A stretch of DNA of 64,000 nt from Prevotella sp. GTDB taxonomy: Bacteria; Bacteroidota; Bacteroidia; Bacteroidales; Bacteroidaceae. Location of the stretch: the NCBI GenBank assembly GCA_022775105.1, contig JALFIX010000070.1:1-64000 (forward strand), given 5' to 3'. Under the pieces are notes generated by a model, which was not told where the DNA came from, did not search any database, and saw nothing but the letters and a program-made list of their open reading frames with translations. Below, in pieces: positions 39,630 through 50,657 of the stretch; position 1 is the first letter of the stretch; the number at the start of each line of letters is the position of its first letter. The position numbers were made by a program, and so were the translations under genes.

Positions 39630-42600
39630 TTAGCAAATCATTCCCAACAATTCTCCGATATAATCCTCGTCCATCTGGAAGACGATATGGTTTTTCTTGC
39701 ATATCGATTTGTCTTCTGCGTGATTCCAGAAACTTACATCTTCATACGGAGTGTTGGATATGATAAAGCTGTCCAAGATGATGTTAGGGTCGCCTAACCT
39801 TGGCTCAATCTCTGTCTTCAACAGCTTATACAGCTGTATCTTCGGGTCATCAAATCCATGAAGATTCCTTATGCCCTTCGGGTCAATGAACGACACGCGC
39901 TGCTTTTCTCCGTCATTCACCCACAGGATGAAGTCGGGATAGAAATTGTTTGCCTCAAAGAAACCAATTCCCTTCCGGCTCTCATTGCGTAGCAGATACA
40001 CTTCCTTGCCAGCAAACTGGTCATCCTTATGCTCATCAAAATACTCGCGGATATGACGGACGAAAGTCTGTTCGCCTGCGTTCAGCGGCACCGGCGATAT
40101 CTTGATGAGCGGTTCGTTGGTATTCTCATCCACCATTGTCTTTTTCCCATGGGAATCCCTGTCTGTGAGACAAAGCAAAGGGAAATACAGATGGCGGTCG
40201 AAGCGGAGTGCCTGAATCCATTTGCCATTGATTTGGAAGTCGCTCTCCATATTGCCCGACAATATCTGTTCGCGCAATTCCTTCAGTTTCTCTATCCACT
40301 CCTCTTGGTCTTGTCTCACCTCCACGTTGTATTCCTCGAAGAAGTTCGGGTCATTGGAATTCACATATACTGTCTCCATAAATTGTGCCTCCCATTTTCC
40401 CTTGCTGCGCTTGTATGCACGGTCGATGTAAGCCCGGAGCAGCGAAATGGTGATGTTCTCCCATCGCTCCACGTCACGCCCGAAATCACGGAACTCCATG
40501 TCAGCCTCTTGGATAACCAACTCATACCACGACGCATCAGCCATAAGTGTTTGTAGGATGTCCGTAGTCAGCGTCATGTTATACCAGCTTCGCTCGTTCT
40601 TCATCTGCTGAAGGGCAAAGAAAATCCTGTTCCAATCGAGCAATGCGAGATGCTTGTCCCTCAGTTTGTCTTTATGTTCAGCCACCTCGGTGCGAATCTT
40701 CGTTCCGCTGCTGTACATGGCTTCTACCCTTGGTGTCCAGTCGAGCTTTATTCTCGTGTCGCCCATCATGTCCAATGGGTTCACCACCACAGATTTCTTG
40801 AAGTCATATCCCTGTTTCAGCCTTATCACCTTGAGCTTTGCATCGCCCAACAGGTTGACAGTCGGAATGTCAATGGACAGGTAGTTCTCTTCGTTGGCAG
40901 GCAGGCCCTCGTCCTCCAAGTATTTGTGGAAGGCATCCATATAGTCGGCTCTCACGCCGAAGATGTTCAGTGTCTCAATGTCGCGCAAACCTCTTGGGAT
41001 AGGGCCTGGATGATAACTGCTGTCCAACTTGCTGCTACGCTTCAGCGAATACTCAAAGCCTTTTAGTCGCACTCCACGTCCGAAGAGCTGGATAATCTCC
41101 GAGCCCTCGCTGCGTCCCACGTTCATCAGTCCCATCACCGAAACTCGCCAACTGCTCCATCCCTCATTGAATTTCTTCGAACCGATAAGGATGTTCACGG
41201 GTGACGACTCGTTGTTGATGTCGGCAAACAGTGACATACGGCCGAATTCCCTTGTCTCGCACTGTATGCCATTGTCCTCACACAGTGAGATAAGTTTGCT
41301 GCTGTCGCCCACGTTGATGACTCCGAAATAGTCGGCATTGCCGATGCGAAGTCCTATCTCCTCGTCGCCACCCTTCTGTTTGTCAAGATGAAGCCTTGCG
41401 TTGGGCAGGTCGCTGTGGAACAGGGTCTTTATCACCTTATTATATGTATCGCGTGCGAACTTGTCTTCCTCTCCAAGTCTCATTCCCGATTTCGCCATCA
41501 TGAAGCTGTTGGCAAACAGCGAATATCCGTTTTTGTTCCTGATTCCGTCATCGGGATTGAACAGACGTTTGATATATCCGCTGAACAGTTCGGGCTTATC
41601 CACAAAATCCTGGATAAACAAGAGTATCTGCACCACGTCGCTCACCTGCTTGCCTCTCACTGTTCGCACTGCATTCACCGAACCGCCGACAAAGATGCCC
41701 AACGGACGGGCAATGAGAAACCGGTTCTTTACCAGCGGACTTGCCTCATAGCTGAGCGTCTGTTCATACAGGCACAGCAAGTAAGCCGTGAGATACATAT
41801 TGAGCTTCTCCTCGTCATCCCACGATGACATGTTCATGATGCGATAGTCCTTGCCATATCCATCGTTGTAGAAATAGCGATAGGAATAGTCGAAGAGTGT
41901 GGCTTTGCCATATTCCTCCAATAGGGCAGCCCTGTCCTTGCCCGAAAGTGCCGCTATGGCCTGTCCGAAGGTGGCGGAATATTCAAAAGAGAAGCCTTCG
42001 GCAGTGAGTTTGTTGCGATAGCCTTTCCATACTTCGCCTCCACTGCCCCTGTGTCCTTCATCCACCAACACGAGGTTATTTCCCTCAAAACTGTCAATCG
42101 CCACGGTCTTGTCGCCATCGGTTTCGGCTAACTTGTTAACATCGATTACTTCCACCGTGTGCTTTCCACCGAATAATCCGCCTTGACTGCTCTTGTTGAA
42201 CAGCTCGGCATAGAAGCCCGAAGCCTGTAGTTCCTTGATGTGCTGATTGCTCAGTCCTTCGTTGGGTGTAAGGATGAGTATGCGGTTGAGCTTCTTGGCA
42301 TGGTGTTTCTCTGCATAATAGAGATACTGCTTGATATTGACATGCAGCATCAGGGTTTTTCCCGAACCTGTGGCGCACCAGAACGCCAACTTGTTCAAGT
42401 CATCATCGGTGAACGCTGGCATCTCATGCCATGTCTCCTGACGGAAATTGAATTTGTTCACAAGAAAATCATTAATATCATCGAGCAGTCTCATCTTGTC
42501 GGAGAAATAGCGGTCAAGATATATTTCCGTGAACAGCAGGGCAAGATACTGGTAGTATTTCCATACAATCTTCTCCGTCCTATGTTCATTAATCTCTTTC

Positions 42601-42851
42601 GTATATTTCACGATATGTCGGTCATATTCCAGCAACTGCTGCTCGCTGATGCCATAATCTACATACAGATGTCTCTTCAGCGCATCAACCATACGTGAAT
42701 ATCCCTCATCGTCCACACCCTCCAATGCAGGGTCTTTGAGGTCGCCCGACAGGGCCGCAAGGTCTTTGCAGCCAAAGAGGCTCAGGATATATTTGAACAG
42801 CACCAACGCTTCTTGCAGTTTCGCCGGCTGCTTTGTTTTCTTCTTTGCCAT
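39630..42851 (-). CDS. Type III Res-like DEAD/DEAH helicase-nuclease
   Basis: This 1073-residue SF2 helicase resembles type III restriction (Res) subunits. The Walker A is CATGSGKTLM (about residue 160), motif II is VDEGHRG (DEGH, about 268), and the region around EIIQLFGRGVRLKG (about 585) is motif VI. Near the C-terminus NFYPDFILWVNDGEKQRVSFIDPKG shows the PD...(x)DxK pattern of a PD-(D/E)XK nuclease. It follows HepT by 18 nt on the same strand. Unlike classical mod-res pairs, it is separated from its methylase by a toxin-antitoxin pair. The target and the need for partner subunits are unknown. Confidence 0.88.
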   Translation of the reverse strand: MAKKKTKQPAKLQEALVLFKYILSLFGCKDLAALSGDLKDPALEGVDDEGYSRMVDALKRHLYVDYGISEQQLLEYDRHIVKYTKEINEHRTEKIVWKYYQYLALLFTEIYLDRYFSDKMRLLDDINDFLVNKFNFRQETWHEMPAFTDDDLNKLAFWCATGSGKTLMLHVNIKQYLYYAEKHHAKKLNRILILTPNEGLSNQHIKELQASGFYAELFNKSSQGGLFGGKHTVEVIDVNKLAETDGDKTVAIDSFEGNNLVLVDEGHRGSGGEVWKGYRNKLTAEGFSFEYSATFGQAIAALSGKDRAALLEEYGKATLFDYSYRYFYNDGYGKDYRIMNMSSWDDEEKLNMYLTAYLLCLYEQTLSYEASPLVKNRFLIARPLGIFVGGSVNAVRTVRGKQVSDVVQILLFIQDFVDKPELFSGYIKRLFNPDDGIRNKNGYSLFANSFMMAKSGMRLGEEDKFARDTYNKVIKTLFHSDLPNARLHLDKQKGGDEEIGLRIGNADYFGVINVGDSSKLISLCEDNGIQCETREFGRMSLFADINNESSPVNILIGSKKFNEGWSSWRVSVMGLMNVGRSEGSEIIQLFGRGVRLKGFEYSLKRSSKLDSSYHPGPIPRGLRDIETLNIFGVRADYMDAFHKYLEDEGLPANEENYLSIDIPTVNLLGDAKLKVIRLKQGYDFKKSVVVNPLDMMGDTRIKLDWTPRVEAMYSSGTKIRTEVAEHKDKLRDKHLALLDWNRIFFALQQMKNERSWYNMTLTTDILQTLMADASWYELVIQEADMEFRDFGRDVERWENITISLLRAYIDRAYKRSKGKWEAQFMETVYVNSNDPNFFEEYNVEVRQDQEEWIEKLKELREQILSGNMESDFQINGKWIQALRFDRHLYFPLLCLTDRDSHGKKTMVDENTNEPLIKISPVPLNAGEQTFVRHIREYFDEHKDDQFAGKEVYLLRNESRKGIGFFEANNFYPDFILWVNDGEKQRVSFIDPKGIRNLHGFDDPKIQLYKLLKTEIEPRLGDPNIILDSFIISNTPYEDVSFWNHAEDKSICKKNHIVFQMDEDYIGELLGMIC

Positions 42852-42869
42852 GATTTGATAATGATTCTA

Positions 42870-43214
42870 TCAGAATTCCTTCATATAGTTCTTTACTTGA
42901 TTTTCTAATTGTGGAAGGTCATTTTGTATTACATCCCATATCACCGAATTATCTACTTGAAAATATTCATGCACAATATAGTTTCTCATGCCAGTAATCA
43001 GTTTCCATTGTGTATCGGGATGCGCACTTTTGAATTCGTTTGTCAGAAGATTAGCGGCCTCTCCAATAATTTCAATGTTCTTTACAACAGCATAGTACAT
43101 CATGTCGTCTTCCACTAAATCGTCTAAACGCTTACCATTGGTATAACGTTTGATTCTTTCAATGGCTTGAACTATATGCTCTAACCTCGTTATGTTTTTA
43201 CTCGCCTCTCTCAT
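42870..43214 (-). CDS. HEPN (HepT-like, DUF86) RNase toxin
   Basis: This 114-residue all-helical protein shows the HEPN active motif RX4H in RNYIVHEYF (about residues 79-87) and IEIIGEAANLL, typical of HepT. HEPN toxins cut RNA, or are themselves AMPylated by the partner MNT. Its start overlaps the MNT gene by 17 nt, the standard antitoxin-first order. It lies inside the methylase-Res operon region, 18 nt before the Res-like gene. Confidence 0.9.
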   Translation of the reverse strand: MREASKNITRLEHIVQAIERIKRYTNGKRLDDLVEDDMMYYAVVKNIEIIGEAANLLTNEFKSAHPDTQWKLITGMRNYIVHEYFQVDNSVIWDVIQNDLPQLENQVKNYMKEF

Positions 43215-43494
43215 AAATTAGAATTTTGTCTTTTTCTGCTGATTCTTGTGCAAATGGCAGAAGTGTGCCTTCTGAAACCAAATCTACTTTACGTCCTAAG
43301 AGTTCTTCCAAATCGTTCCACATGCTAAAGAACTTTAGACCGATAGGGCGGCTCTTGTCTAATAGCACGATGATATCTACATCGCTGTCTGGTTTCTGCT
43401 CGTTACGTGAAAACGAGCCAAAGAGCCATGCCTTCAAGACAGGTTGTGCCTTGAAGTAGTCTGCCACTGTGGTTTTAATCATATTTGTTGTCAT
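43198..43494 (-). CDS. MNT-type nucleotidyltransferase antitoxin
   Basis: This 98-residue minimal nucleotidyltransferase has the GS(X)nDxD signature: LFGSFSRNEQKPDSDVDIIVLLD. In MNT/HEPN modules this enzyme AMPylates HepT on a Tyr and neutralises it. It has its own promoter (complement of 43521-43550) between the methylase stop and its ATG, so the pair can be expressed apart from the upstream genes. Confidence 0.92.
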   Translation of the reverse strand: MTTNMIKTTVADYFKAQPVLKAWLFGSFSRNEQKPDSDVDIIVLLDKSRPIGLKFFSMWNDLEELLGRKVDLVSEGTLLPFAQESAEKDKILIYERGE

Positions 43495-43565: not shown

Positions 43566-46502
43566 TTATTCCGTTTCAAACATTCGTTTCGTGAATTCTT
43601 CTTCGATTAAGACTACTTTCCAGTTGTCCTCATCGCGACGGAGGTTGGGCAGGGTGTTGTCGCCGTTCACGTAGATGAGGTCAAACTCTGAGTCTCTTGT
43701 GCGGAAGTCCATTCGCTCGAAGAACTGGTTCAATGCCTCGTTGTCTATCTCCTTGCAGTTGCGCCAGATGACCAATGTATGCAGGTTGTCTCTGTGGGTA
43801 TAGCCTTGCACCACACAGATGTTCTCGCCTTTGTACCAGTCTTCTGTCTCAACGTTCAGTCCTATCAGATAGTTGAATGTCTCCACCATATCCACTGGTG
43901 TTTCCACGAGTTCGTTGTCCTTCGTCGTTTTCAGTGTCATGGCAAACGGATTCTCAAACATCTTCAGATTCAGCAGTGAGTCGCGCGTCTCCACGTCGAG
44001 CATATAGCTCAACATATAGCTTTCCTTAAATCCGCTGCCGTCCTCAAATTGAGCGGACATCTGCTGCTGTTTCAGCTCCAAGTTGTTCAATGTGTCTTCG
44101 TATTGCTCTAAGCGCATGTACTTGAAGCACTGGGAAATGCCTTGACGTGAGACGGGCTTGCCGTCCTTCCAGTCGGGGGAGTAGATTACTTTTTCGATGC
44201 GAGTACGAGTGGCACTGTCAAAGTAATTATTTACTTCCACCAAAATATATTTTCTATTTTTGAGGTCTTTCTTATTCAATTCTATTACAGCATGACCAGT
44301 TGTTCCAGAACCAGCAAAATAGTCAATTACAATAGAGCTATCCATGGCATTTAATACCTTTAAGCTATCAATAACTGCATACAAAGACTTTGGATATGAA
44401 AAAGCGTTTACATTGCCAAGTATATTTTTCAACAAATTAGTACCATTTGATGTTGAAGAATACTCTGTTTTATCCCAAATAGTCAAAGGTAAAATACCCT
44501 TATCATTTAGACGGGATTTAACATATACGGCTAATTGTCCTGTACGGTCTTTTTTTACCAGCATTTGATTAATTGAAGACAGAGTCCTATCTATCCCCCA
44601 TTTCCAACGTCTTGGCACACCTTCTTCGTCAATAGGGTATAATACCTTCTCTCCTTCAATCGGAGCCTCCAATATTTCGTATTCAGACTTTGCTGCACAC
44701 CACAACATTTTGGGAATACGTATAGTTTTGTCTGTAATATATATAGGATAATACATTGTAGGAGCATCCTCTTTCCAACCTCCATGTTTTCGAAAATTTA
44801 CCCATTCAAATGCTCCTTCACTATCAGATTCGTTGTAACGGTCATTTTGTTCTTGAGTTCTTTCTAATCGACCAATTTTTGTATTTGAATCCGCTGAAGA
44901 ATATAATGCATACTCATGGGCGATAGAAAATCCCTTTTCTGTAGAACGTCCTGATGGATTATTCTTAATTGCAACTGTACCAAGCATATTATCTTCACCA
45001 TATAGATTTTTGATGATATAGTACAATTCATGTAATTGAAAATCATCTATTGTAACACAGTTGATACCATCACCCCCCAATAATTTCTTTCCTAATACTA
45101 AACGATCAAAAAGCAGAGACGACCATGAACTTTTCAAATAACTATTTTTATATAGTATTTCACTTGCAGATGTATTGTATGGAGGATCTATATATGTACA
45201 CTTTATCCTTTTGTTATACTTCTCCTGCAACAACTCCAATGCCTGGAAATTTTCACTATTTATCAGCAATCCATTGCATTGTTTATCAATTCCCTTATCC
45301 CCTAAATGAGCCAACAGCTTATGCTTGAATTGCTGAGAGAAGAACGCAGTATCAAGCACAAGGAAAGGATTCTGATTAAGGAACTCCATGGTGAGAGGCA
45401 CAGAATACCCTTCGGTTGTCAAGTCGCTCTTTATCTCGTCGATGGCAAAAAGACGCACCCATTCCTCACGCTGGCGGTCATTGGCAAGAATCTCGGGATA
45501 TAGCTCGCGAGGTACACGGTCGAGCGTGATGCAATAATCACACTGCACCACAAACTTCTTCTTCAGCCATAGCTTCTTCTGGAAATCCTCCAGCTGGGCA
45601 AGCATACGGATAATCTTTTCGCCCACGGTCTTGATGGCCTTTATGATGTTCAGCTGACTTGCAATATGCTGTGCGTCAAGGTCGTCGAGAAGCATCACCT
45701 CGTTCTTAATATAGAAGTCAAGTTCGCGACGTAGGAAGCCTCCAAGGTCTTTGTGGATGAAATAGTCGAAGCTGTTCTTGGCTGTATAGTCGGTCAAGTG
45801 CTTCTCCAAAAGCGTGCGATTGGCATTCTTGTCGGTGGGCGATTTCACAGTCAGCAGTTCAGAGAACGGTTCAGGGACAATCTCGCTTATCTTGCCTAAT
45901 GCCTCAGCCATAAGGTCGTTCTGCTTGGTGGTCTTAGGCATCAGTTCGTAGGTGAAGAAGATGTTCAGCTCTTCGCCGTTTTCCTCATAAAACAGTTCCT
46001 CTTCATTCTCCGGCTTATAGAGCGCAAATCGACGCTCCATGTTGTTGGCTGCCTTGTTGTTGTTCTGCTCCGTGGAGGCATCCTTCAGCACGAAATGCAC
46101 TTTTCTTCTTGATGTAGGCAACACGAAAGTATAGTCGCGGAAATACTCCGACGACTTGATATAGTATTGGTCGGCATTTGCCCAATGCAGCTTCACCTCT
46201 TCGCCATTGTAGGGAATGGCGTAGGTGTTGTCCTTGTAGCGACGCTTGCTGATGAAGTCGCCATTGTCATAATAGCGGCTGAAAAACGTGACAAGATGAG
46301 AGAACACCTCGTTGTCAGAGCCGTCGGGTGCGCCTGCCAATGCCGTTTTAACCTGCGGCAGAAGTTCGAACTTCAGGAAGTGTTCTATCTCCGACCGCTT
46401 TTGGTTCATGATGCGGTATATGCCAAAATCCAGTTCGGCATGGTCCATCATGAATATCTCCTGTAGTTTCTTGATGAAACTGTCATGATAATTTGTTGCC
46501 AT
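43566..46502 (-). CDS. Large beta-class adenine DNA methyltransferase (type III Mod-like)
   Basis: The product is about 978 residues from ATG 46502 (MATNYHDSFIKKL); the track start at 46541 overlaps the SNF2 gene and is less likely. The N-terminal roughly 420 residues are helical and charged, of a type seen in large Mod-like enzymes. Motif IV is TYIDPPYNTS (about residue 437) and motif I is DYFAGSGTTGHAV (about 730). The IV-before-I order is the beta class used by type III Mod, and the 290 residues between should hold the target-recognition domain (NGTNLLKNILG near its end). It probably makes N6-methyladenine. The catalytic/TRD block (about 44215-45300) is visibly more A+T rich than both flanks. 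Confidence 0.9.
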   Translation of the reverse strand: MATNYHDSFIKKLQEIFMMDHAELDFGIYRIMNQKRSEIEHFLKFELLPQVKTALAGAPDGSDNEVFSHLVTFFSRYYDNGDFISKRRYKDNTYAIPYNGEEVKLHWANADQYYIKSSEYFRDYTFVLPTSRRKVHFVLKDASTEQNNNKAANNMERRFALYKPENEEELFYEENGEELNIFFTYELMPKTTKQNDLMAEALGKISEIVPEPFSELLTVKSPTDKNANRTLLEKHLTDYTAKNSFDYFIHKDLGGFLRRELDFYIKNEVMLLDDLDAQHIASQLNIIKAIKTVGEKIIRMLAQLEDFQKKLWLKKKFVVQCDYCITLDRVPRELYPEILANDRQREEWVRLFAIDEIKSDLTTEGYSVPLTMEFLNQNPFLVLDTAFFSQQFKHKLLAHLGDKGIDKQCNGLLINSENFQALELLQEKYNKRIKCTYIDPPYNTSASEILYKNSYLKSSWSSLLFDRLVLGKKLLGGDGINCVTIDDFQLHELYYIIKNLYGEDNMLGTVAIKNNPSGRSTEKGFSIAHEYALYSSADSNTKIGRLERTQEQNDRYNESDSEGAFEWVNFRKHGGWKEDAPTMYYPIYITDKTIRIPKMLWCAAKSEYEILEAPIEGEKVLYPIDEEGVPRRWKWGIDRTLSSINQMLVKKDRTGQLAVYVKSRLNDKGILPLTIWDKTEYSSTSNGTNLLKNILGNVNAFSYPKSLYAVIDSLKVLNAMDSSIVIDYFAGSGTTGHAVIELNKKDLKNRKYILVEVNNYFDSATRTRIEKVIYSPDWKDGKPVSRQGISQCFKYMRLEQYEDTLNNLELKQQQMSAQFEDGSGFKESYMLSYMLDVETRDSLLNLKMFENPFAMTLKTTKDNELVETPVDMVETFNYLIGLNVETEDWYKGENICVVQGYTHRDNLHTLVIWRNCKEIDNEALNQFFERMDFRTRDSEFDLIYVNGDNTLPNLRRDEDNWKVVLIEEEFTKRMFETE
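44215..45300 (-). other. A+T-rich mosaic block within the methyltransferase gene
   Basis: This part encodes motif IV, the predicted TRD and motif I. It is clearly richer in A/T runs and A/T-ending codons than the flanking parts of the same gene. The change is abrupt near both ends. This suggests replacement of the specificity-determining part by recombination. Confidence 0.6.
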
Positions 46503-46525
46503 ATATATTGTTCTTTTTTGTTTTT

Positions 46526-49363
46526 TCACTTTGCCTGCCATCGGATAAGAAACATGTTGCTGCTCTCCGTTGACTGAATCATCCGTCGCTCCAGTTCGGC
46601 AATCATCCTTCGCCGCTGTTCGCCTATCTCGTCCTCCTTGTCCTCCAGTTCATTGCGCAACCGGCGTTTCTTGCGTTTCAGTTCATCTATTTTGCGCTCC
46701 AACTCTAATTTCTCCTGCACCGATGTCGCATTACGAGCATCGCGTTCTGCTTGCAGAGTGCTTCGCTTCACGATGGTCAGTTCCGCTTCCAGTCCATCGA
46801 TGCAATCCCTTTCCCATTGGTATATTCTGTTTTCTTCCTGTCGGAAGTAGTTGAGGTTGCGCGAGTCGATGTCGTTCAGCTTCGCCTTCGAACGTTGGGC
46901 TATGTCCTTCTGTAGTTTCTCCTTTACATCAGCAGGAATGGCTGTGACATCTGTTTCCACTCCTCCGTTCAGCATCAGACGCTCGGCTTCATCCTGTGTG
47001 AGAGCGCGTCCTGAGTCGGTGATGGCAGTGAAGATATGGTATTGCTCCTCCTCAAATGATGACACACTGAGACTTGACAACACAAGCCAACCGCTTTCGC
47101 CATGCAGATAATCAGGCAGATTGGCATTCATGCTGATGGCTGCCTCATCGAACACCACCGTGCCGCCATCGTCCAGCGGAAGTGAGAGGGCTGTGTTGAT
47201 GATATGTTGCGCCAAGGTGTCGTTGAGTCTATAGGGAAGGGCGTCGCCCTGATTGTTGAGCATGGAATATTTGCCCTTGCGCTCTCCGGCTACGGGAGTT
47301 TTCAGCACAAAGGTATAGTTGGAGTCGTTGAACACGGCTTGTGAGGAAAGTACATATTTTGTGAGTTCCCAGAAGACATGCTGATAGCGGTTGAGAAAGG
47401 CACCCGTCTCATCCTTGCGGGTGCGGAGATGCTCCTGCACATTGATGTCGAAATGCTCAATCACCTCCTGCCTCACCTCGTCCATCCTCTGGTCAATCTC
47501 TTCCTGCATGTCCGCCTGCAGACGACTGAAGGCAGCATTGATTTCCTCCTCACTGCGGCATTGCTGATAAATCTCCCAAATGCGACTCTCGATGTCTATA
47601 TTGTCAGCCTTGCCCAATATCTCGTCGCTTGCCCCAAACACATCGTCGAAGAGCTTGAACTTGTCGTTGAGCAGTTCAAATACTCTTACGTCTGCATAAT
47701 TCCTGATGTTGATGAAGTTTACCACCACAACATCGAATTTCTGTCCGTATCTATGGCATCTTCCGATACGCTGCTCAATGCGTTGCGGATTCCAGCTCAG
47801 GTCGAAATTGATAATCAGAGAACAGAATTGCAGGTTGAGACCTTCGGCTGCCGCCTCGGTGGCTATCATGATCTCTGCCTCATTCTGGAAGTAGTCAACA
47901 ATAGCGGCTCTGCGGTCGGCAGCCTTGATGCCACTCACCTTGTCGGGATGCTCAGCGCACCACCTTTTATATATATCATTGGTCTGAGGCTCGGATGCCT
48001 TTCCATTGAAAAGAACCACCTTGCCGTCGTAGCCGTTTGCCTCAAGAAACTCGCGTAGATAGGCTTGTGTCTTGGTGCTCTCGGTGAAGATGAGGGCCTT
48101 GCGGTTTGCTCCCATCTCGCGCAGTTTGTCGAACGATTGTTCCAAGGCGATGAGCAATGCCTTTGCCTTCGATTCTTCCTTGATATGCCTTGCCTTGTCG
48201 ATAAAGCCTTCCACTGTCTCTATCTCCCTCTTGAGTCGAGGTACATCTATCTCGTCCTCATCAAAAAGACTCTCTTCGCACACCATTGCCGAATCGTCCT
48301 CATATTCCTGGTAGGTCTGCCACTCGTCTTCATCCACCAGTTCCTCAACGTTCAGCTCTTCGGTCTTGTGGGCTTCCAACATGCGCGTGAGGCGTTCCTT
48401 GATATGCTCCAAGGTGAAGATGAGGGCGTATGTGGATGAGGCAAGTATCTTGCGGACAATCATGGTGGTGAGCTTCTTTTGCGAAGCAGGCACACTATAG
48501 AGATCGTCGCGACGCAGAAATTCGCTCACTGCCTGATAAAGCTCATACTCGTCGTCGGTGGCATTGAACTTCTGTGTCAGAGGCAGGCGGCGGGTGTAGT
48601 TGATGTATTCCTTGACATCTTTGCGGAGGGTTCGGGTGAACAGCGGTTGTATGCGCTCGCGCAGCTGTTTCAGGTTTTCGCCTTTGCCATATTCGTTGCG
48701 AAAACTCTTCTCGCTGCCAAAAAAGTGGTCGTCAATCACTGAGGTAAGACCATATAGCTCCATCAGAGAATTTTGGAAGGGTGTGGCAGTGAGCAGCAGT
48801 TTCTTCACTCCATGCAGTGCATCGCGCACATCGGCTGCCGTGCGTGCCGACTTGCGATAGACGTTGCGCATCTTGTGTGCCTCGTCCATCACCGCAAGGT
48901 CAAATCCGTTGGTCACGATGTCGCCCTTGTGCTTGGCGCAGAAATGATACGAACAGATAATCACCCGTTTGGCGGAGAGCGGATTGCGGCCTTCACGGAG
49001 ATAGGCGTTGTAGTTCTTGGTGTCGAGGATTTCGCACGGTATGCCAAATTTGTCCTGAAGTTCTGCCTCCCATTGCTTGCGCAACGAAGCCGGACAGACA
49101 ACGATGATCTTCCGCTTGCCTGTTGACCAATATTGGCATAACACAAGACCAGCCTCAATGGTTTTTCCTAAGCCTACCTCATCTGCCAACACAACGCCTT
49201 TGGACAGTGGCGAACGGAACGCAAAGAGGGCAGCATCAATCTGATGGGGATTGATGTCAACGGTGGAACTGAGCAACGACTGCGACAACGACTCCAGTTC
49301 TCCGCCATTGCTTTTCTGCGAAAGCAATGCCGCGTAATATCGGGCGTGATAACGTGTAATCAT
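46526..49363 (-). CDS. SNF2-type helicase/ATPase of the defence island
   Basis: This protein of about 945 residues is of the SNF2/HepA-like SF2 class. Motif I is LADEVGLGKTIEAG (about 60-73), motif II MDEAHKMRN (about 160), motif III LLTATPFQNS, motif V ATEAAAEGLNLQFC (about 500) and motif VI QRIGRCHRYGQ (about 540). The C-terminal roughly 150 residues are a Lys/Glu/Arg coiled coil (ELERKIDELKRKKRRLRNEL). I start at ATG 49363 (MITRYHARYY); the track's 49372 start is a TTG. It precedes the methylase by 23 nt. A promoter, a structured leader of about 445 nt and a start-abutting hairpin lie upstream. Confidence 0.9.
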   Translation of the reverse strand: MITRYHARYYAALLSQKSNGGELESLSQSLLSSTVDINPHQIDAALFAFRSPLSKGVVLADEVGLGKTIEAGLVLCQYWSTGKRKIIVVCPASLRKQWEAELQDKFGIPCEILDTKNYNAYLREGRNPLSAKRVIICSYHFCAKHKGDIVTNGFDLAVMDEAHKMRNVYRKSARTAADVRDALHGVKKLLLTATPFQNSLMELYGLTSVIDDHFFGSEKSFRNEYGKGENLKQLRERIQPLFTRTLRKDVKEYINYTRRLPLTQKFNATDDEYELYQAVSEFLRRDDLYSVPASQKKLTTMIVRKILASSTYALIFTLEHIKERLTRMLEAHKTEELNVEELVDEDEWQTYQEYEDDSAMVCEESLFDEDEIDVPRLKREIETVEGFIDKARHIKEESKAKALLIALEQSFDKLREMGANRKALIFTESTKTQAYLREFLEANGYDGKVVLFNGKASEPQTNDIYKRWCAEHPDKVSGIKAADRRAAIVDYFQNEAEIMIATEAAAEGLNLQFCSLIINFDLSWNPQRIEQRIGRCHRYGQKFDVVVVNFINIRNYADVRVFELLNDKFKLFDDVFGASDEILGKADNIDIESRIWEIYQQCRSEEEINAAFSRLQADMQEEIDQRMDEVRQEVIEHFDINVQEHLRTRKDETGAFLNRYQHVFWELTKYVLSSQAVFNDSNYTFVLKTPVAGERKGKYSMLNNQGDALPYRLNDTLAQHIINTALSLPLDDGGTVVFDEAAISMNANLPDYLHGESGWLVLSSLSVSSFEEEQYHIFTAITDSGRALTQDEAERLMLNGGVETDVTAIPADVKEKLQKDIAQRSKAKLNDIDSRNLNYFRQEENRIYQWERDCIDGLEAELTIVKRSTLQAERDARNATSVQEKLELERKIDELKRKKRRLRNELEDKEDEIGEQRRRMIAELERRMIQSTESSNMFLIRWQAK

Positions 49364-49365
49364 AA

Positions 49366-49410
49366 ATGCCAAATGATAGGTAGCAATCGCATCAACCTAT
49401 CATTTGGCAT
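49366..49410 (-). promoter_or_regulatory. 16-bp perfect hairpin abutting the SNF2 start codon
   Basis: ATGCCAAATGATAGGT (49366-49381) and ACCTATCATTTGGCAT (49395-49410) are exact inverted repeats with a 13-nt loop. In the mRNA the hairpin ends two bases before the ATG at 49363, so it should block ribosome access when folded, or it may be an operator. Confidence 0.75.
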
Positions 49411-49439
49411 GACTTGTATATCTATATCTGCGGAACGGC

Positions 49440-49680
49440 CATAGAAAAAGGGTGTAAGCTTCTTCTTACGGTGTTCCGGGGTTAAGCGTCGGATTCTTGG
49501 ACCCCTCGTAGTATAAGAGTGCTTACACCCATTGCTGGGTGCAAACATCTTCTATCGTTATACTACGATTGGCCTTAAAATTCCTGACGCCTGTATATAC
49601 GCCAAAGCCAACCATCATTGATGTGGTCTTTTATCCAAGAGTTAAGTTTCCGACGCTTATTCTGGAACACCACAATGATA
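49440..49680 (-). ncRNA. Candidate structured attenuator leader of the defence operon
   Basis: Read on the minus strand, GGTGTTCC..TAAGCGTCGGA (49676-49650 region) can pair with TCCGACGCTTA..GGAACACC (49494-49469). Nested inside are CGTAGTATAA/TTATACTACG and CACCC-agcaat-GGGTG. Alternatively GGGTGTAAGC (complement of 49521-49530) pairs with GCTTACACCC (complement of 49450-49459), which is followed by TTTTTC. The two folds exclude each other, as in terminator/antiterminator switches. There is no long ORF on this strand in the segment. It resembles no RNA family I recognise. Confidence 0.55.
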
Positions 49681-49814
49681 GTCTGATGTTGCTATATGTC
49701 AATATGTTATGTTTCTTTTTTCTTCTTTTCTCTGTTTCTTGTTTTATCTTTAAGTTAATACTCGCAAGCGGCCGCCATCGTGGCATATTGCCACCGCAAG
49801 CCGCTCTTACGGTG

Positions 49815-49844
49815 CAAAATTACAAATAAAAAACGAAAGGACAA
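49815..49844 (-). promoter_or_regulatory. Promoter of the defence operon (SNF2 gene)
   Basis: On the minus strand TTG (complement of 49842-49844), 19 nt, TAATTTTG (complement of 49815-49822). About 32 bp here, including CTTTGTCCTTTC and TTTTATTTGTAA, nearly duplicate the VapBC-like promoter at 50594-50623. The distance to ATG 49363 implies a leader of about 445 nt. Confidence 0.75.
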
Positions 49845-49878
49845 AGAAAAAGGGAGAAAAACTTGCGGTTTTCTCCCT
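49841..49878. terminator. Terminator of the PIN gene; right copy of the 23-bp inverted repeat
   Basis: AGGGAGAAAA (49851-49860) pairs with TTTTCTCCCT (49869-49878) over an 8-nt loop, and on the minus strand it is followed by a T-rich run. Bases 49841-49863 exactly match the complement of 39605-39627. The terminator overlaps the -33 element of the next promoter. Confidence 0.8.
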
Positions 49879-50593: not shown

Positions 50594-50623
50594 CAAAGTT
50601 ACAAATAAAATTTGAAAGGACAA
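50594..50623 (-). promoter_or_regulatory. Promoter of the VapBC-like pair
   Basis: Minus strand: TTG (complement of 50621-50623), 19 nt, TAACTTTG (complement of 50594-50601), then GCGGCGGATATATAA. It is highly similar in the spacer to the SNF2 promoter and in the first transcribed bases to the MNT/HEPN promoter. Confidence 0.75.
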
Positions 50624-50657
50624 AGAAAATGGGAGTTTTTTTGTGATTTGAGATATC

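Follow-up and report, generated by a model that had tools for sequence, protein, structure and literature searches.

The window analysed here, a 64,000-nt stretch of Prevotella DNA, carries on its minus strand a defence operon whose genes run in the order SNF2/DrmD-like helicase, type III-like methyltransferase (Mod), MntA-like protein, HepT-like protein and type III restriction subunit (Res). The features of the locus are collected in Table 1. The MntA/HepT-like toxin-antitoxin pair (42870-43494, minus strand) lies between the methyltransferase and the restriction subunit. Because the operon lacks the set of drmA, drmB and drm methyltransferase and has only a DrmD-like helicase, whose partners here are the type III Mod/Res and MntA/HepT proteins, we rejected an identification as DISARM.

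An earlier note on this DNA had placed a canonical minus-strand promoter far from the start of the SNF2 gene, and a Bacteroidetes-type site, TTTG-N19-TAATTTTG, is indeed present there. This pattern corresponds to the sigma-ABfr consensus of Bacteroides (PMC7366714) and occurs seven times in the window, compared with 0.9 expected. A pattern scan detected no further match between the site at 49815-49845 and the SNF2 gene, and transcription is expected to start near 49808. In most of the homologues described below, TAnnTTTG is found ~80-160 nt upstream of the conserved core. A near-copy of the leader promoter, TTTGTCCTTTCAAATTTTATTTGTAACTTTG, is located ~780 bp upstream on the same strand (50594-50624, minus), where it precedes a PIN-domain gene at 50299-49886. 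A sigma-70 scan also flagged TTGACA-16-TATCAT at 49702-49675 (minus strand), which agrees with the E. coli consensus at 11 of 12 positions and is not the Bacteroides consensus. It overlaps element E (see below) and could mislead reporter tests in E. coli.

The region between this promoter and the SNF2 gene folds far better than expected by chance (–151.4 kcal/mol, shuffled mean –104.0, z –8.9, with none of 100 shuffles as good). It had been described as a leader of about 445 nt; a structured leader is present, but conserved RNA covers only ~49691-49440, so that the description does not extend to the full 445 nt. No tRNA or tmRNA was found. A leader-peptide attenuator was rejected, since the starts of the longest frames are scattered, only 1 of 82 cores has a stop-free frame and no frame is conserved.

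Table 1. Genes, promoter and RNA elements of the locus (window coordinates)
Feature	Position	Strand	Basis or remark
Type III restriction subunit (Res)	39630-42851	-	PF04851; PADLOC REase_III, E 1.5e-196
HepT-like RNase	42870-43214	-	PF01934, E 2.4e-29
MntA-like nucleotidyltransferase	43201-43494	-	PF18765/PF01909
Type III-like DNA methyltransferase (Mod)	43566-46541	-	PF01555; PADLOC MTase_III, E 1.8e-213
SNF2-family helicase, DrmD-like, first gene of the operon	46526-49363	-	PF00176, E 4.6e-32; PADLOC DrmD, E 3.4e-200
5' leader of the defence operon	49364-49808	-	folding z-score; no conserved reading frame
Hairpin H2	49366-49410	-	16-bp stem just before the ATG at 49363; GAUAG on 5' arm
Conserved RNA core	49440-49691	-	alignment, covariance model of 260 positions, genome matches
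Strand C and U-run (49449-49445)	49445-49459	-	3' strand of the putative terminator
Fold 2 stem		-	B (GGGTGTAAGC) with C (GCTTACACCC, 49459-49450)
P1, 3' strand GGAACACC	49477-49470	-	pairs with GGTGTTCC
P2, 3' strand TCCGACGCTT	49493-49484	-	pairs with AAGCGTCGGA
P3, 3' strand TTATACTACG	49516-49507	-	pairs with CGTAGTATAA
Strand B	49530-49521	-	common to A (fold 1) and C (putative terminator)
Strand A	49546-49537	-	local partner of B in fold 1
P3, 5' strand CGTAGTATAA	49567-49558	-	pairs with TTATACTACG
P0, 3' strand CAAUGAUGG	49612-49620	-	pairs in fold 2 with CUAUCAUUG (49681-49673, within E)
P2, 5' strand AAGCGTCGGA	49658-49649	-	pairs with TCCGACGCTT
P1, 5' strand GGTGTTCC	49671-49664	-	pairs with GGAACACC
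Element E (ACAUCAGACUAUCAUUG)	49673-49689	-	conserved 5' element; predicted free in fold 1, paired in fold 2
Promoter TTTG-N19-TAATTTTG	49815-49845	-	pattern match, sigma-ABfr consensus

Mutually exclusive folds in a family of Bacteroidales leaders

To obtain first relatives of the leader, we searched the DNA of 201 genomes from the family and 393 from the order. From their alignment we derived the pattern CTATCATTGTGGN{36,66}AATGATGGTTGGC, which occurs at 40 loci in 85,462 species genomes; all named carriers belong to the Bacteroidales. As some positions of the 5' hairpin were prescribed by this pattern, their invariance is not evidence. A covariance model of 260 positions, built from 39 close leaders, then uncovered a second, more distant subfamily of ~45 relatives, likewise from Bacteroidales where named, which was found by the model and is free of the search pattern. 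Matches to the model were present in 39 of 301 family genomes and in 15 of 393 genomes from the order, and, of 396 genomes drawn from the phylum, only in the window's own. Carriers of the leader include the cultured Parabacteroides distasonis An863 (L085:1533-1787). A strict Rfam search gave no match for the window, a relaxed one only chance-level matches, and no match was obtained at the RNA in 20 distant loci, the only hit being a tRNA elsewhere in L122. With nothing above the gathering score, a known Rfam riboswitch or cis-regulatory family was rejected. The same applies to an origin from a phage or plasmid, as neither subfamily was matched in phages, plasmids or viral contigs.

The helices of the first proposed fold (fold 1) were all recovered where the earlier note had drawn them, the short CACCC/GGGTG pairing being the tip of a 10-bp hairpin A:B. 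In the 39 close leaders, P1 is paired in 96.5% of cells, P2 in 91.5%, P3 in 91.0% and A:B in 95.7%, with two-sided changes at 3/8, 6/10, 7/10 and 5/9 pairs, respectively. Overall (37 pairs), 93.5% are paired, compared with 78.0% after shuffling of partners and 36-44% when the strands are slid, and two-sided changes affect 21 pairs. Without being prompted, RNAalifold added two helices that had not been listed before: P4, which is UUGG/CCAA in the window and CUCUGA/UCAGAG or others elsewhere, and P8 (GCC/GGU). With these, all helices of fold 1 nest into one rod closed by P1. Pairing is also retained in 40 leaders of the distant set, where whole 3' strands were permuted as the control: 97.8 vs 53.8% for P1, 95.7 vs 73.6% for P2, 87.2 vs 44.7% for P3 and 91.2 vs 70.7% for A:B. 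Because fold 1 guided the fitting of the distant alignment, the percentages are biased in favour of this fold. A further helix, P6 (GGGG/CCCC), covaries to some extent among the close leaders but not in the distant set and was given no weight.

Fold 2 had been proposed as an intrinsic-terminator design, and strands B and C as well as TTTTTC, which directly follows C from 49449, were located as described. B lies inside and C outside the helices of fold 1, so that the two folds compete. In the 39 close leaders B:C is paired in 96.9% of cases, compared with 89.1% after shuffling and 32-60% when slid; 7 of its 10 pairs show changes on both sides. The column-wise test on the covariance-model alignment of the distant leaders was weak (79.1 vs 75.3%) because C shifts register there. 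We therefore replaced it by a register-free test, in which duplex energies of B with the C of the same leader are set against those with every other C over 5000 permutations. In the close set, own pairs reach –16.5 kcal/mol, others –12.9 and the best permutation –14.6; in the distant set, which was never used in fitting B:C, the values are –14.9, –10.1 and –11.9 kcal/mol. Permuting the partners leaves shared ancestry in place. Still, own-pair matching in two subfamilies with several distinct B sequences appears hard to explain otherwise, and that B is kept complementary to A and C at once is, as far as comparison of the leaders can tell, the signature of a switch.

Two features are expected of an attenuator: a U-tract directly after the terminator stem, which is present as a U-rich tail behind strand C at the end of 41 of 41 close leaders, and a terminator and an alternative fold that exclude each other and are both conserved, which is the case here. 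The presence of mutually exclusive folds in the leader is confirmed, and the compensatory changes that were sought in homologous leaders occur in both folds, clearly favouring the attenuator logic of the earlier note. With 61 nt, the loop of the terminator is long, and the terminator was not called by a standard scan. The additional pairing P0 of fold 2 is only weakly supported: its strands are complementary in all close leaders, yet invariant there and partly fixed by the search pattern, and coverage is low in the covariance-model alignment of the distant leaders.

The predicted energies of the window are –91.2 kcal/mol for fold 1 and –71.4 kcal/mol for fold 2, a difference of ~20 kcal/mol in favour of fold 1, which is also lower in 37 of 39 leaders (mean difference 21.5 kcal/mol). 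By these nearest-neighbour energies, the presumed read-through fold would be the ground state, in which case termination must rely on co-transcriptional timing or a factor.

Some positions are invariant in both subfamilies and mostly unpaired in fold 1, namely element E, GAAAC after P2 and AUG before A; these are natural places for a ligand or protein to bind. Two leaders (L062:6253-6587 and L089:6557-6889, the latter the same locus as L038) carry an extra ~70-75 nt after AAUGAUGGUUGGCUUCGCC. As the insertion occurs at the same point in both, the RNA seems to tolerate growth there.

Element E and the hairpin before the start codon

Element E is conserved in both subfamilies. Its predicted probability of being unpaired in the window is 0.91 in fold 1 and 0.16 in fold 2; on average these values are 0.63 and 0.21, and all 39 leaders have E more open in fold 1 than in fold 2. 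Between the terminator and the start codon, most leaders contain a second element, hairpin H2, which the earlier note had overlooked and which is part of the anatomy of the conserved RNA. In several loci (L061, L067, L073, L082), its stem takes in the start codon. GATAG is present on the 5' arm in 64 of 79 spacers, compared with 8.4 expected from shuffles, and in 49 spacers TGC is found no more than 14 nt from GATAG (1.2 expected).

The arms of H2 covary, with –15.2 kcal/mol for own pairs, –10.2 for those of others and –11.5 for the best permutation, and 96 of 939 pairs are G-U. Covarying arms and tolerated G-U pairs argue that H2 acts as an RNA. A long and almost perfect inverted repeat that carries a conserved GATAG next to a gene start might also be a DNA operator for a repressor, its likeness to E being secondary. 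We regard this as very unlikely, given that 10% of the H2 pairs are G-U, that the arms covary as RNA pairs do, that H2 lies ~400 nt downstream of the promoter and that its 5' half matches E.

As an RNA hairpin, H2 is linked to the rest of the leader by this match: its 5' half is complementary to E (GCAUnnnCUAUnAUU) of the same RNA. The mean duplex energy is –15.9 kcal/mol for E with its own H2, –14.0 with the H2 of others and –6.8 with shuffled H2. The preference for the own partner is significant overall (P <0.0002) and within the close leaders (P 0.0004); in the distant set, where the sequences barely vary, the excess is not significant (P 0.27). Comparison of the leaders thus demonstrates H2 and its complementarity to E. 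In the window, H2 alone (–23.7 kcal/mol) is predicted to be more stable than E:H2 (–16.3). E lies directly 5' of P1 and H2 directly 3' of the terminator, and an E:H2 duplex could stack on a closed P1. GATAG of H2 is absent in three leaders that have kept E (L056, L088 and L118). A distant subgroup (L124, L134, L135 and L136) lacks both H2 and the CUAU of E; three of these four leaders look closely related, and the first genes behind them include genes for secreted proteins and others without a known defence role.

The exposure of E in fold 1 also admits a different reading, in which the RNA is free, noncoding and trans-acting and has a promoter and a terminator to itself. B:C would then only end transcription, and the released RNA would refold into the rod, the ground state of the finished molecule, leaving E exposed to act on H2 of the operon mRNA, or the rod to act on a defence protein. 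We consider this improbable: the copies nearly always lie directly upstream of a same-strand gene, usually with H2 in between, B is shared by A and C in all copies, a feature that a plain terminator could do without, and no clear stand-alone copies were seen in one pattern scan and the sampled genomes.

Genes behind the leader

In nearly all leaders, a same-strand gene starts within ~250 nt of strand C and its U-tail, and, within one pattern scan and the sampled genomes, nearly all copies have such a gene directly downstream. The leader precedes unrelated operons, and their first genes are mostly defence genes, a statement for which we have no background rate from random leaders. The contexts comprise SNF2/type III systems, type I, III and IIG restriction-modification, EcoRI-like methylases, PLD-helicases and some surface-acyltransferase genes. 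By our own assignment, the first genes of the close set include 9 split IIG-type N6-methyltransferases, 5 SNF2/DrmD-like proteins, 5 PLD-helicases, 5-6 type III Mod, 3 HsdM, 2 EcoRI-like methylases and 2 MmeI-like proteins, in addition to single cases of a UvrD/GajB-like helicase, an ion channel beside an HsdR-N nuclease and an SPFH protein. The nearest upstream genes do not share a common defence family.

In the distant set, EcoRI-like methylases account for 18 of 41 first genes. Others encode type III Mod, a D12 methylase, ResIII and a MotA/ExbB protein resembling ZorA (see below), as well as acyltransferase-3 proteins (four), sulfatase-like proteins (two), one MBOAT protein and one GDSL protein. 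The membrane acyltransferase genes (Acyl_transf_3, MBOAT) are found behind the distant copies L094, L122, L129, L132 and L115, and their products may act on surface glycans and in this way change how phages adsorb. Acylation of the surface can prevent adsorption, which makes an anti-phage theme plausible, though not proven, for genes of this type. A few leaders (L124, L134 and L136) are followed by genes without a known defence link.

Two individual loci were also noted. At L105:1501-1673, a shortened relative of the leader with a weak score (28.7 bits) precedes a MotA/ExbB-type gene resembling ZorA of Zorya. At L049/L109 (G218 C33), tandem leader copies, one of them truncated, lie near a ResIII helicase gene and are perhaps the remains of a replaced defence operon.

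A proposed attenuator and its relation to known systems

With both folds conserved and covarying in up to ~80 homologous leaders, nearly all of them directly upstream of a same-strand gene and mostly of defence genes, we consider it highly probable that the leader is a cis-acting RNA attenuator and a member of a family common to many Bacteroidales anti-phage operons. The folds, their covariation and the gene context are established by comparative data. Regulation in the cell and its direction, termination and the opening of H2 are inferred in the absence of transcript or reporter data.

We propose that, in fold 1, P1, P2, P4, P8, P3 and A:B would nest into the long rod and leave C unpaired, so that RNA polymerase would read through into the operon while E stays free. 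Upon its emergence, the 5' arm of H2 would be captured by E and H2 could not close over the start codon, allowing translation (on state). In fold 2, C would take B from A, forming the intrinsic terminator that stops transcription, and E would be tied up in P0, so that any read-through message would stay closed (off state). H2 and its pairing with E are likely to represent a second gate. Coupling of the two gates in cis is inferred, as is the tipping of the balance by a protein, a ligand or a change in polymerase speed.

As for what tips the switch, a protein that binds the rod and controls termination is possible, although short of even chances in our view; conceivable are NusG paralogues of the UpxY/LoaP kind, other RNA-binding regulators and the operon's own products. 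NusG paralogues serve capsule operons of Bacteroidales, and the RNA is large and well conserved, with invariant stretches that are for the most part unpaired (GAAAC, AUG before A, E). No candidate protein has been identified, however, and because the downstream proteins are unrelated between loci, feedback by one operon product is unlikely. We are slightly more doubtful about a small-molecule riboswitch, in which a metabolite altered by infection or a cofactor like S-adenosylmethionine binds the rod. Its size, conserved unpaired regions and platforms at the terminator and the start codon would be typical, and many enzymes encoded behind the leader use S-adenosylmethionine. Against it, acyltransferase, sulfatase-like and helicase genes also carry the leader, which leaves the methylation cofactor as no obvious common thread; a ligand is not known and Rfam contains no matching riboswitch.

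Taking the attenuator model further, the leader might be an RNA sensor dedicated to phage attack or to the change in host transcription that such an attack brings about, plugged in before dozens of unrelated defence operons and surface-modification genes, with E/H2 switching transcription and translation together. Such an RNA-controlled anti-phage regulon in Bacteroidales remains speculative, and we would not presently expect it to hold in full. If true, phage defence in a dominant gut order would have one level of regulation running through type I, III and IIG restriction-modification, PLD-helicase and other operons; the leader would offer a handle on the signal, and searching genomes for it could reveal further defence genes. 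The leader is also relevant to the question why Bacteroidales resist the introduction of foreign DNA.

The control of costly restriction systems is known mostly from protein regulators. C proteins and BrxR/CapW are DNA-binding regulators at the promoters of defence operons; like the leader, they represent a common control module before various defence systems, whereas the module described here is an RNA fold. Control at the RNA level has been described for the EcoRI and Eco29kI restriction-modification systems, where antisense RNAs arise from reverse promoters and are system-specific (PMC3874152). The RNA studied here, in contrast, is a sense-strand leader common to many types of system. In two reviews on restriction-modification control, a word search located no riboswitch or leader attenuator for such systems, and no description of this RNA was found in the literature, with preprints and most subscription papers outside the scope of the search.

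In Bacteroides capsule loci, antitermination leaders of the LoaP/UpxY type, served by NusG paralogues, likewise govern read-through of long operons by a leader RNA. The present switch differs in being a ~250-nt rod with its own alternative terminator instead of a short protein-loading hairpin, and no NusG paralogue is found among the genes of the operon, the only part of the genome to which this statement refers. With riboswitches and other terminator-antiterminator leaders, it shares the long 5' leader, the mutually exclusive terminator and alternative folds, the strongly conserved unpaired nucleotides and a start-codon hairpin as a second platform. Unlike these, it has no known ligand or Rfam family, precedes many unrelated defence operons instead of one pathway and possesses two gates that are apparently linked by E. 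Attenuators as such are known; what is new, within the reach of our searches, is a single leader family that precedes many unrelated defence systems and whose gates are apparently coupled.
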